Below, in pieces: positions 3,323 to 5,862 of a DNA stretch of 20,923 nucleotides. Positions within the stretch are counted from its first letter, which is position 1; each line of letters begins with the position of its first letter. Source of the DNA: a virus; the IMG/VR virus record IMGVR_UViG_3300007734_000452, positions 1-20,923 of that record. The stretch is one strand, 5' to 3'. Made by a program: the position numbers and the translations under genes. The notes under the pieces were generated by a model. That model was not told the origin of the DNA. It made no database searches and saw only the letters and a list, made by a program, of their open reading frames with translations.

Positions 3323-3555
3323 TGTTTTAATTGGTCCGCTAGTAGTTTAATGTTTCGTTGATGTTTGTCTAGGAACCTTCCTAGTTCCTCCAAATCATCC
3401 GTCAGCGCATTCATGTTCGCCTGGTAGACCTCATGGCTACAGTTAGCCAGAACATCCCCAAAGAACCTATCGACTAGGCCAATGGTCTTATGAAGCCTGC
3501 TGTTCTCGGTCAGCAGCAGTTCAATATAAGCCCAAGCCAAGCCGGTTTTATTCAC
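3319..3555 (-). CDS. Hypothetical helical protein, 78 residues
   Basis: A leucine-rich, probably all-helical and coiled-coil-prone protein (for example DDLEELGRFLDKHQRNIKLL near the C-terminus). No family is recognised. The GTG start overlaps the previous stop as GTGA, and the stop overlaps the next start as ATGA. This places it firmly in the four-gene chain with the DUF5754-like protein. An assembly, scaffold or partner role for its neighbours is conceivable but not shown. Confidence 0.65.
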   Translation of the reverse strand: MNKTGLAWAYIELLLTENSRLHKTIGLVDRFFGDVLANCSHEVYQANMNALTDDLEELGRFLDKHQRNIKLLADQLKQ

Positions 3556-3686
3556 TTAGGGGCAAACCCACCCTTCTTGGCCTTCATAAGCCTCCAGGTG
3601 CGCGGGCTAATGGTGGACTTTGACTTGGGCCTGCTAGTCCCAGCCTTGCGGCGGGCGTTGATGTTTGCGTATAAACCTTGTTTCAT
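3552..3686 (-). CDS. Small basic phage protein (MKQGLYANIN family), 44 residues
   Basis: The product begins MKQGLYANINARRKAG and ends MKAKKGGFAPK. Very similar tiny proteins starting MKQGLYANI are, from memory, common in aquatic phages and often lie next to DUF5754-like genes; their function is unknown. It is highly basic, so nucleic-acid binding is possible. No ribosome site precedes the ATG. Instead, an extended -10 element ends six bases upstream, suggesting a leaderless mRNA. It heads the four-gene leftward chain. Confidence 0.72.
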   Translation of the reverse strand: MKQGLYANINARRKAGTSRPKSKSTISPRTWRLMKAKKGGFAPK

Positions 3687-3692
3687 GTGGTT

Positions 3693-3720
3693 AGTATAGC
3701 ATGACCCGCAAACTCCCCAA
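3693..3720 (-). promoter_or_regulatory. Extended -10 promoter, probably leaderless
   Basis: On the minus strand, TGC followed by TATACT (3701-3693) is an extended -10 element. A weak -35, TTGGGG (3720-3715), lies 16 bases upstream of the hexamer. The hexamer ends six bases before the ATG at 3686, so transcription would begin at or next to the start codon. This agrees with the lack of a ribosome site. Confidence 0.5.
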
Positions 3721-3723
3721 CCC

Positions 3724-3841
3724 CCATCGGTAAACGCCGATGGTGTGCTGAACGGCCTTTCTTGCCTTCATGGAAAACGCTACGGTGAAGAGCGTAGCGG
3801 TAGGGGTAGGACGGACTAAGGAGTCCTACCTCTACTTCACC
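3724..3841. other. Nested hairpin cluster between replication genes and small-gene chain
   Basis: Three inverted repeats follow one another: CCATCGG/CCGATGG (3724-3743, 6-base loop); CGCTACG/CGTAGCG (3778-3799, 8-base loop); and a 13-base arm at 3800-3812 pairing with 3823-3835. The last is fully paired in plus-strand RNA, with one G-U pair. In addition GGTGAAG (3784-3790), in the second hairpin's loop region, pairs with CTTCACC (3835-3841). Hairpin two and this outer stem are therefore partly exclusive alternatives. The region carries no gene I can support. It may be terminator material, an origin structure or a small structured RNA. Confidence 0.6.
3774..3799 (-). terminator. Probable intrinsic terminator of the leftward replication genes
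   Basis: Read on the minus strand, the CGCTACG/CGTAGCG stem with its 8-base loop is followed directly by TTTT. This is a modest rho-independent terminator about 120 bases downstream of the helicase stop. It would separate the replication-gene transcript from the small-gene chain that starts at 3686. Confidence 0.45.
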
Positions 3842-3849
3842 TTCGCGGA

Positions 3850-3964
3850 TTGTATTGTTTTATATATATAATGGACTTCATAGTGTAACCTTCAGTAAAT
3901 TTTCAGCACTGCGTTCAGTTCAGAATTCAGCCTGATTTGCAGTATATAACCCGTTCTCCTTCAG
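3850..3964. repeat. AT-rich tract and TTCAG direct repeats
   Basis: An alternating TATATATATAAT tract (about 3860-3872) is followed by six TTCAG copies: 3891-3895, 3902-3906, 3914-3918, 3919-3923, 3926-3930 and 3960-3964. The repeats begin in the intergenic stretch and continue into the 3' end of the helicase gene. An AT-rich unwinding element next to short iterated sites and replication genes is the usual makeup of an iteron-type origin. The repeats are only five bases long, so chance cannot be excluded. Confidence 0.4.
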
Positions 3965-4936
3965 TATTTTTCCTGCCTTGGTGAGTCTTTCAATGTACTT
4001 GTAGATAGTGCGTTCACTGACTGAAAGCTTGTCTGCAAGGTGCTTCACGAGCTGGTTGGCAACCCAATCCTTGCTACCCATTTCAGACAGAAGGCGTTTA
4101 TCATCAATAGATTTGTGCGTATTCTGACGCTTCAGTTTGTCTGGGTTCAGTGCGTAATTAGCCTTGAAAATAGGGTAGTGCCACTGAATGACGAAACTAT
4201 CCACCGGCGGGAAGTTCCTTAGTGTAATCTCGCAACTGAAGCTGCGTTCATCCTCTTCATGGGCGGTCAGGACGACCAGGGTGTCCGGGTTCCGGGCGAA
4301 GACCCCAGACCCGCTGAAGCGGTCGATGGACTCTGACCCGCTCTTATTGCCCTTACTGAAATGGTGGCTTAGTATCACTGAAAGGTCATGGCGCACCGCC
4401 AGTGCCTCAAATTCATTCATTAGGGTAGCCATATCACCGGCGTTGTTCTCATCCTTCTCCCCCATCAGCATGTAATTTGGGTCTAAAATGATCGCCTGAT
4501 AGCCCTTCCCATCGATATGTTTCTCAATTAGAGGTCGGATGAGGCTAAAGTCGGCAGCGTGGCCCCTGAGCGTCCACACGTCAAAATCCTTCACTTGCTC
4601 ATCCGTCAACCCCTTGGCCTTCACCACATCCGCCAAGCGGTTGCGGAAACTCCACTCTTGAATCTCAAAGTTAATGAATAGCACCTTGGCCTTATGGCAC
4701 TGCTGTCCCCACCACTGACTGCCTGAGTAAATGGATAATGCTAGGTCGATTAACGCCCAGCTTTTGTATGACTTGCTTCCCCCGCCCAAAAGCAGCTTCC
4801 CCCCTCTATGCAGTATACCTTCAATTAAAATCTGTGGCTCCTGTAGTGCTTCCCGCATTAACTCTGAATAAGATTTAATCGGCGGCCACTGGTCCACCGG
4901 TTGCTTCACCCCTAAACTGACTGCTGGTTCTATCAT
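3920..4936 (-). CDS. RepA-like hexameric replicative helicase (AAA_25 type)
   Basis: A 338-residue RecA-fold ATPase. Walker A is GGGSKSYKSW (residues 51-60), the variant common in phage RepA-like helicases. The Walker B strand ends AIILDP (148-153). VILSHHFSKGN (187-197) fits the sensor/H3 position, and RFSGSGVFARNPD supplies a likely arginine finger. The last 70 residues look like a winged helix (VSERTIYKYIERLTKAG). It probably unwinds DNA at the phage origin together with the adjacent primase. I chose the ATG at 4936, not the TTG at 4957, because AAGGAGG lies 5 bases before it and it overlaps the primase stop as ATGA. Confidence 0.87.
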   Translation of the reverse strand: MIEPAVSLGVKQPVDQWPPIKSYSELMREALQEPQILIEGILHRGGKLLLGGGSKSYKSWALIDLALSIYSGSQWWGQQCHKAKVLFINFEIQEWSFRNRLADVVKAKGLTDEQVKDFDVWTLRGHAADFSLIRPLIEKHIDGKGYQAIILDPNYMLMGEKDENNAGDMATLMNEFEALAVRHDLSVILSHHFSKGNKSGSESIDRFSGSGVFARNPDTLVVLTAHEEDERSFSCEITLRNFPPVDSFVIQWHYPIFKANYALNPDKLKRQNTHKSIDDKRLLSEMGSKDWVANQLVKHLADKLSVSERTIYKYIERLTKAGKILKENGLYTANQAEF

Positions 4937-5862
4937 TTCCCCTCCTTGCAGAACCAAAGAAGGCTCTGTGTTTTTTCGTTTCTTTTAGCCCCAGGAATCC
5001 TTACGGGTTGGCTGGGCTTGAAAGTTGCAGGATCACATCCCAACGGCACAAGGAAAGCTTTTAATTGCTCCTCCCATTCTTTCTTTGGCGGCATCTCAAA
5101 CCACCCGTGCAAACTCTTCCCCGCCGTGTCGACCACGGCATATAGTTTCATTCGGAACAGATCGCGCATAGCCTGGAAGACCGCTCCCATCTGTGGCTTG
5201 GTCAGCGTGTCGGACTCCACCACCAGGTATAAGCGTTTATCCACCTTATCATTAGACCTGCTAATAGTTCCTGGCACAAACACTGCTCCGGTCGTAAACT
5301 GACCAACTGGCAGTGACAACTCTCTCCACTCCTCCACCCTGCGGAAGTTCTGCGGATGCCTGCCGCTATCCTTCACGTCCCCGATCCATGTGATGTCGGC
5401 ATCGCGGAAGAGCGACAGGAAGGCTAGGTACTGCTCCTCTGGTGTCTCCAGTTGCACCGGACTCTCCTCATACATATCCGCTGGGTCCCAGTTGTAGTGG
5501 GTGAGGTAGCGTTGCTTGTTTGATTCAGCGATGGTCTTGATGCGGTCAAGGATCTCTGACTCTGGGTCTTTCTGGATTACCAAGGGTCTTGGTATGGATG
5601 TACCGGCAGACATCGGCGCGGCCATGTTAAAATCCTTGAGGATGGCTCGGCGCAGCTTTCGGTTGGCCTCATCCCTCCAGGCTTGGCATGAAGAATGCCA
5701 GCAGAAGATCGTTGGTACACCATCCACGAACACGGTGGTGTCGCGCAGTCTGGTGTGGCTGGTGTGAGCCGCTTCCCCTGGGCAATGGCACAGCCCGTGA
5801 TTCTCGGACTGCCAATCGACTTTACCGACTATCGCTTCGGCGTGACGTTGGGATTCACTCAT
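4933..5862 (-). CDS. Zinc-finger archaeo-eukaryotic-type DNA primase
   Basis: This 309-residue protein has an N-terminal zinc finger, HCPGEAAH (26-33) with CWHSSC (54-59), that fits the CP..H...C..H..C finger of phage primases. A spacer of about 130 residues follows. The AEP-like catalytic core comes next: LVVESD (213-218) as the acidic metal motif, GKSLHGWF (248-255) as the conserved histidine motif, and QPVRIPGAKR (285-294) as the basic motif. It would make primers at the fork opened by the helicase encoded immediately downstream. No ribosome site precedes the ATG; a 25-codon frame overlapping it as ATGA may provide coupling. No DNA polymerase is in this window, so it may be host- or phage-encoded elsewhere. 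Confidence 0.82.
   Translation of the reverse strand: MSESQRHAEAIVGKVDWQSENHGLCHCPGEAAHTSHTRLRDTTVFVDGVPTIFCWHSSCQAWRDEANRKLRRAILKDFNMAAPMSAGTSIPRPLVIQKDPESEILDRIKTIAESNKQRYLTHYNWDPADMYEESPVQLETPEEQYLAFLSLFRDADITWIGDVKDSGRHPQNFRRVEEWRELSLPVGQFTTGAVFVPGTISRSNDKVDKRLYLVVESDTLTKPQMGAVFQAMRDLFRMKLYAVVDTAGKSLHGWFEMPPKKEWEEQLKAFLVPLGCDPATFKPSQPVRIPGAKRNEKTQSLLWFCKEGK

Follow-up and report, generated by a model that had tools for sequence, protein, structure and literature searches.

The window analysed here is a 20,923-base virus record (IMG/VR record IMGVR_UViG_3300007734_000452) in which the majority of genes point leftward. Two of them, on the minus strand, encode a RepA-type helicase with a C-terminal winged helix-turn-helix (HTH; 3920-4936) and, as a separate gene, a primase resembling the archaeo-eukaryotic primases (AEP; 4933-5862). 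Reading leftward from the helicase stop codon, we find CTGAA repeats, a TATATATATAAT tract, a hairpin complex at 3778-3847, a further hairpin at 3724-3743, a promoter-like TGCTATACT motif, and a gene of 44 residues. An earlier reading of the sequence (hereafter the original prediction) had proposed a candidate replication origin at this place, and its coordinates for the hairpins, stems, tract, and TTCAG copies were all correct on direct reading of the sequence. Here we describe the element formed by the repeats, the tract, and the hairpin complex, and weigh whether it may be the replication origin of this phage.

The hairpin core is described on the minus strand, from the outside inwards. The closing stem pairs 3845-3847 (5′ arm) with 3778-3780 (3′ arm), and takes the forms CGC/GCG, CAC/GTG, and TTC/GAA among relatives. 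It is followed by an internal loop with GAA on the 5′ side (3842-3844) and GTA on the 3′ side (3781-3783), and by an outer stem of GGTGAAG (3835-3841) and CTTCACC (3784-3790). The inner stem of 13 base pairs (5′ arm 3823-3835, 3′ arm 3800-3812) contains 12 Watson-Crick pairs and one position that reads G3804/T3831 on the plus strand and A-C on the minus strand. It is capped by the apical loop TCCTTAGTCC (3813-3822), which measures 9-12 nucleotides (nt) in most relatives. In the window, the arms 3778-3784 and 3793-3799 may alternatively form a small hairpin, CGCTACG/CGTAGCG (3778-3799).

On either strand, a core of 78 nt outfolds each of 200 dinucleotide shuffles, with DNA z-scores of -3.7 (minus strand) and -5.0 (plus strand) and z-scores of -4.2 and -4.6 over both strands with RNA parameters. 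The whole 278-nt region is less exceptional (RNA z -2.5 on the plus strand and -1.1 on the minus strand). The prediction that the outer stem competes with the small hairpin was borne out, as the two folds lie within ~2 kcal/mol of each other (outer fold versus small-hairpin fold, -28.3 versus -27.3 with RNA parameters and -13.3 versus -15.1 with DNA parameters). Energy thus barely separates these folds in the window, and the choice between them rests on the relatives.

Relatives were collected by a helicase search of viral contigs (33 loci) and by a primase alignment (232 loci, of which the best 80 were used), and further loci were added. Every locus with a helicase stop codon and at least 170 nt beyond it entered the hairpin survey, which gave 73 distinct sequences. 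The hairpin lies downstream of the helicase in all 73, with 37 distinct cores among them. The regular expressions used for cutting out the cores preset part of the loop and of the closing pattern, and none of the 73 sequences failed them; of the stretches parsed for a later set of 48 distinct cores, only two failed, each cut short by a contig end. A covariance model built from the cores (R1) scores 89.7 bits at a single copy in the window. Of 39 sources searched with it, 34 hold one copy in the expected orientation; those that lack it are locus L117 and four cultivated-phage loci (L184-L187). The weaker extra matches are the same hairpin read from the other strand. Seven long contigs and eight more each hold one copy. 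A scan that was blind to proteins, using a DNA motif of the loop region, returned 118 stretches (an earlier, stricter DNA pattern returned only three). At 74 of the 80 loci checked, the helicase is directly upstream, and at the other six the contig ends within 135 nt upstream.

The stems are supported by covariation. Over the eight pairs counted for the closing and outer stems in 37 sequences, standard pairs are found in 291 of 291 cells, and in 48 cells both partners have changed. Neither the paired share nor the covariation score is reached in any of 500 shuffles, and pairing falls to 23-67% when the partner arm is slid along the sequence. Eleven additional cores are fully paired, which brings the count to 383 Watson-Crick pairs and one wobble pair in 384 cells of 48 distinct hairpins. 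The outer stem GGTGAAG/CTTCACC is replaced elsewhere by GGGAAAG/CTTTCCC, GGGATAG/CTATCCC, GGCAGTG/CACTGCC, GGAAAGC/GCTTTCC, or GGAACC/GGTTCC. The original prediction had named a lack of compensatory changes among relatives as a ground for refuting it, and such changes are plentiful. For the small hairpin, no covariation was found (87.9% paired, equalled by shuffles), and it is missing in several lineages. As judged from these comparisons, the outer stem, and not the small competing hairpin, is the real fold, and the element itself is real and tightly conserved. We note that the hairpin of L003 (3793-3870) resembles a join, with a 5′ half of one type, a 3′ half like that of L249, and an A-A mismatch in the outer stem; it looks like a natural recombinant or an assembly chimera.

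Two features of the hairpin deserve notice. On the minus strand, the loop between the closing and outer stems reads 5′-GNA/GNA-3′ in 45 of the 48 cores (as GAA/GTA, GAA/GAA, GGA/GTA, GGA/GAA, or GTA/GAA) and tandem GA/GA in the other three. On the plus strand it reads TNC/TNC, so that sheared G-A pairs are possible on the minus strand only, which favours the leftward strand as the folded one. Loops of this sheared type are stable in both DNA and RNA, a point for which our literature search gave nothing useful. The arms of the inner stem vary, yet one position that is not Watson-Crick is kept. In 43 of the 48 hairpins, A or T faces C at this position; two have C-A, two have other mismatches, and one has a missing base (L283, which we read as leaving a bulged A). 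It seems from this comparison that the conserved thing in the inner stem is the defect itself.

The original prediction had noted that the 13-bp stem is fully pairable only in plus-strand RNA and had taken this as a hint of a rightward structured RNA or primer transcript. The pairing statement holds for the window and fails as a conserved property: full pairing of the plus strand through G-T is possible in only 33 of the 48 hairpins, so the argument does not carry over to the relatives. The region has no promoter-like site on the plus strand, G-U pairs amount to one in 384 stem cells, and the GNA/GNA loop favours the opposite strand. The rightward RNA is therefore not upheld.

A structured RNA of the leftward sense is a rival reading. 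The hairpin might work within an RNA, either the 3′ portion of the helicase mRNA or a short leftward RNA, and serve as a stabiliser, a regulator, or the precursor of a primer RNA. The GNA/GNA loop lies on the strand that this reading needs, sheared G-A pairs are common in RNA, a leftward operon would read through the hairpin, and the covariation is the pattern that an RNA would give. Set against these points, G-U intermediates are nearly absent, an Rfam search found no match for the element, and an RNA would have no need of the constant tie to a TA tract and to iterons matched to the HTH. We therefore consider a leftward structured RNA unlikely.

The repeats form an iteron-like array at 3877-3930 on the minus strand, with CTGAA at 3926, 3914, 3902, and 3891 and ATGAA at 3877 (steps of 12, 12, 11, and 14), and an extra CTGAA at 3919. 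On the plus strand, TTCAG is found at 3891, 3902, 3914, 3919, 3926, and 3960. Counted over the full window, the word is not enriched (47 copies against 48.5 expected), but five copies within 68 nt are an enrichment (P 0.002). The TA-rich tract TATATATATAAT (3861-3872) separates the array from the hairpin, and a TA-rich tract occupies the same place in the relatives listed. The window and its group carry four to five copies of CTGAA; the steps (11, then 14-15) are the same in other lineages, whose words are CTGTCA/CTGCCA, GTGTCA, or CTATCA-like. With the spacing picked after inspection, the repeat steps give P<0.05 in 22 of 30 regions. Enrichment of a single repeated word reaches P<0.05 in only six of 28 iteron regions, and each of the six carries CTGAA repeats.

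The words of the repeats follow the helicase HTH. Across 114 loci, with the primase and the helicase core controlled for, similarity of the repeat region has a partial correlation of 0.63 with that of the C-terminal HTH (P 0.001); the partial correlations are 0.29 with the helicase core and 0.01 with the primase. The hairpin behaves differently, correlating with the helicase core (r 0.41, P 0.001) and neither with the HTH (0.03) nor with the repeats (-0.09). These P values are rough because the loci share ancestry. The link between HTH and repeats is visible by eye in L063, which has a window-like HTH and CTGAA repeats together with a hairpin like that of L012. L014 has a window-like primase (95%) and an HTH, repeats, and hairpin of another type, which speaks against a link to the primase. 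Linkage between adjacent sequences could contribute to the correlation of HTH and repeats; it would not explain why the hairpin ignores its neighbours.

The helicase contains AAA_25 and HTH_11 domains (Pfam). Its predicted model (predicted local distance difference test, pLDDT, 64) matches the fold of RSF1010 RepA in Foldseek (E 3.5e-7 for 1olo, 5.7e-7 for 1g8y), as it does the folds of many other RecA-fold proteins, and its profile matches 1g8y with E 0.0077. Matches of this profile to CD276 were regarded as spurious. The TTG start listed for the helicase (4936-4957) is probably wrong, as relatives start at MIEPAV, with the ATG at 4936 overlapping the primase stop codon. For the window primase alone, no family match and no PriCT were found. 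Among its relatives, phrog_2597 matches 16 of 20 at a lenient cut-off (best 5.8e-5), and the helicase matches the later part of the same family. The primase profile matches the primase part of the fused proteins of FP_Lugh, EFC-1, Hayley, and Javan273 (hhalign probability 93.6, E 2.2e-7), of which the FP_Lugh protein is annotated as an AEP primase-helicase, and the window helicase is collinear with the remaining part of these proteins. Judging from the profile comparisons, the helicase and the primase are the split form of fused AEP primase/RepA-type helicases of cultivated phages. Searches with the primase gave no RepB′ match among PDB sequences, no match among phage records, and 65 stretches among genomes with no relative among them; a DNA similarity search of the phage collection gave no match.

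A similar anatomy is found behind the fused genes. Fourteen cultivated phages were examined, from 54 records with a helicase match, and in all 14 the stretch behind the fused gene contains a 100-nt window that outfolds every one of 40 shuffles. In Hayley and Dulem virus 35, the hairpin is assigned less clearly, and the stretch tested enters the next annotated gene. The most frequent 7-mer is enriched (P<0.05) in only five of the 14, and one of these is a run of C. In cultivated Firmicutes phages (L184, L185, L187, L202, and L204-L211), a large unannotated region with repeats and a hairpin lies between the fused primase-helicase gene and the RusA/resolvase area.

Another rival is a leftward transcription terminator or insulator that would close the helicase operon. 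A terminator-like element is called at 3799-3778 on the minus strand, and 36 of 37 relatives have a new promoter-like motif beyond it. The stem called is the one without covariation, and the GC-rich stem with a T run seen in the window loses its T run in relatives, where the 8 nt after the stem hold two to seven T (only two or three in 12 of 37). A terminator would also require neither the iterons nor the fixed internal loop, and we consider this reading very unlikely. The promoter-like motif is of the extended -10 type (TGCTATACT, 3693-3701, minus strand) and lies within 170 nt of the hairpin in the 36 relatives, where it could aid opening of an origin. Within 3684-3701, it is placed 6 nt ahead of the ATG of the 44-residue gene, so the mRNA of this gene (3552-3686, minus strand, phrog_25774) may be leaderless. 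Hairpin 1, upstream of the motif (3724-3743, minus strand; arms 3724-3730 and 3737-3743), is specific to certain lineages: some relatives have different but paired arms at the same place (CATCGG/CCGATG, CACTGG/CCAGTG), and it is missing in others. Between the hairpin and the promoter, a few relatives (L009 and L022) carry two CTATAAACG-like units in tandem, and L070, L072, L084, and others, which belong to one lineage, carry variable runs of GGGCTGG/GGTTGG units after the hairpin.

Several observations count against an origin at this place. Cumulative GC skew was computed on 15 long contigs (G001-G007 and G010-G017) joined end to end, an assumption for records classed as linear. In all 15, the raw skew peaks no more than 1 kb from the element and reaches its minimum 14.5-18.3 kb away, nearly opposite. 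At a usual bidirectional origin, the cumulative skew is at its minimum, the leading strands being G-rich. The skew check proposed with the original prediction thus gave an ambiguous outcome, with an extremum at the element and a polarity opposite to that of a usual origin, which is a mild count against the origin reading. The sign is unchanged in all 15 contigs at fourfold sites with gene strand removed, where the best switch point is scattered from -1.1 to +11.0 kb and only in four contigs falls 2 kb or less from the element. In the contigs mapped, the element is soon followed by genes on the opposite strand, which help to place the maximum; by the usual rule the polarity is terminus-like, and early versus late genes could be its cause. 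In addition, eight of the 30 regions fail the iteron spacing test, even with a spacing picked after inspection, and DNA parameters lean slightly to the small-hairpin fold in the window alone. The hairpin does not track the primase (partial r 0.04), so a single-strand initiation site (ssi) read by the primase is not supported. The AlphaFold model of the primase (pLDDT 51) is too poor to test its fold, and its fold search is meaningless.

The skew maximum speaks for a replication terminus, or for a site of packaging or recombination made of folded single-stranded DNA; recombination sites of the folded kind, too, typically have imperfect hairpins. The linkage of the element is to the helicase gene, however, the terminase genes are ~2.8 kb away with opposite-strand genes between, and the iterons track the helicase HTH. 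We regard such a site as very unlikely here.

We conclude that 3778-3930 is likely to be the replication initiation region of the phage, an origin of the initiator-helicase type, with a probability of roughly two in three. The candidate origin has gained strong comparative support, from the covariation, the helicase linkage, the iterons that follow the HTH, and the matching anatomy behind fused genes of cultivated phages, and is likely though unproven. Sequence comparison establishes the anatomy, the covarying fold, the strict linkage to the helicase gene, and the iterons that follow the HTH; from these we infer that the region acts as an origin, that DNA and not RNA is what folds, that the helicase is loaded here, and where priming takes place. 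In the proposed mechanism, the C-terminal winged HTH of the helicase would bind the short iterons that immediately follow the helicase gene, and the adjoining TA tract would open. The exposed leftward-sense (minus) strand would fold into the conserved hairpin and help to load the helicase. The folded hairpin would set the site at which the helicase-primase complex assembles and primes nearby, followed by extension by a host polymerase.

A more specific possibility, which we rate as less likely than not, is that the origin is coded in structure. The helicase motor, and not the primase, would read a folded single DNA strand through the sheared GNA/GNA loop and the obligatory unpaired position of the inner stem, and the fused HTH would read exchangeable iterons. 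The element would then be a loading site with two locks, on a plan common to a wide group of phages with an AEP primase and a RepA-type helicase. Literature searches aimed at the element or the phage group listed no paper that describes it. If the origin reading is true, many uncultured phages, a large group, gain a compact origin that can be tested, and a rule follows for phages with an AEP primase and a RepA-type helicase, in which repeats, a TA tract, and a hairpin are expected directly behind the gene. The exchangeable pair of HTH and iterons, together with a hairpin that tracks the helicase core, would make RepA-type helicase loading directly testable.

The closest precedents share parts of this layout. 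Like the RSF1010 oriV, the element combines iterons (P 0.002 in the window), an AT-rich part, and a hairpin with a RepA-fold helicase and a separate, probably AEP-type primase, and RSF1010, with ssiA and RepB′, is a published precedent (PMC4434180). In contrast to RSF1010, which uses RepC, the HTH is fused to the helicase here. RSF1010 has two such sites, ssiA and ssiB, whereas a single covarying hairpin is found here, hairpin 1 being lineage-specific, and this hairpin does not track the primase. The AEP relationship of our primase comes by profile from the fused phage primases and not from RepB′. In the plasmid pRN1, a stem-loop of 100 nt behind orf904 is described as required for replication, and phage BIP-1 offers a similar precedent (PMC4234260). 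In both, a large stem-loop lies directly behind the gene of an AEP primase-helicase that ends in a winged helix, and in our window, too, the stem-loop is directly 3′ of the putative initiator gene. The difference is that pRN1 and BIP-1 use a superfamily 3 (SF3) helicase and pRN1 lacks iterons, whereas an AAA_25/RecA-fold helicase of the RepA type is accompanied by iterons here.

In SCCmec (Cch2) and SaPI, short iterons that lie just past the helicase gene are bound by the C-terminal domain of that helicase, and inverted repeats are present (PMC7581432). Our element shares the iterons just downstream of the helicase gene and the inverted repeats. Cch2 is a 3′-to-5′ helicase of another kind than RepA. 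The description of the InversePrim architecture (PMC5862659) names PriCT-1 and places PriCT before a primase fused to a RepA helicase. The fused proteins of cultivated phages start with PriCT_2 (three of three scanned) and appear close to this architecture. These phages (FP_Lugh, EFC-1, and the Javan phages) have proteins homologous to ours, with repeats and a big hairpin directly downstream; they differ in having a fused gene with an N-terminal PriCT_2, where our window has two separate genes without PriCT, and in hairpin sequences that do not match model R1 in the four tested. By analogy, the element as we read it resembles the origins of RSF1010, pRN1, and SCCmec.
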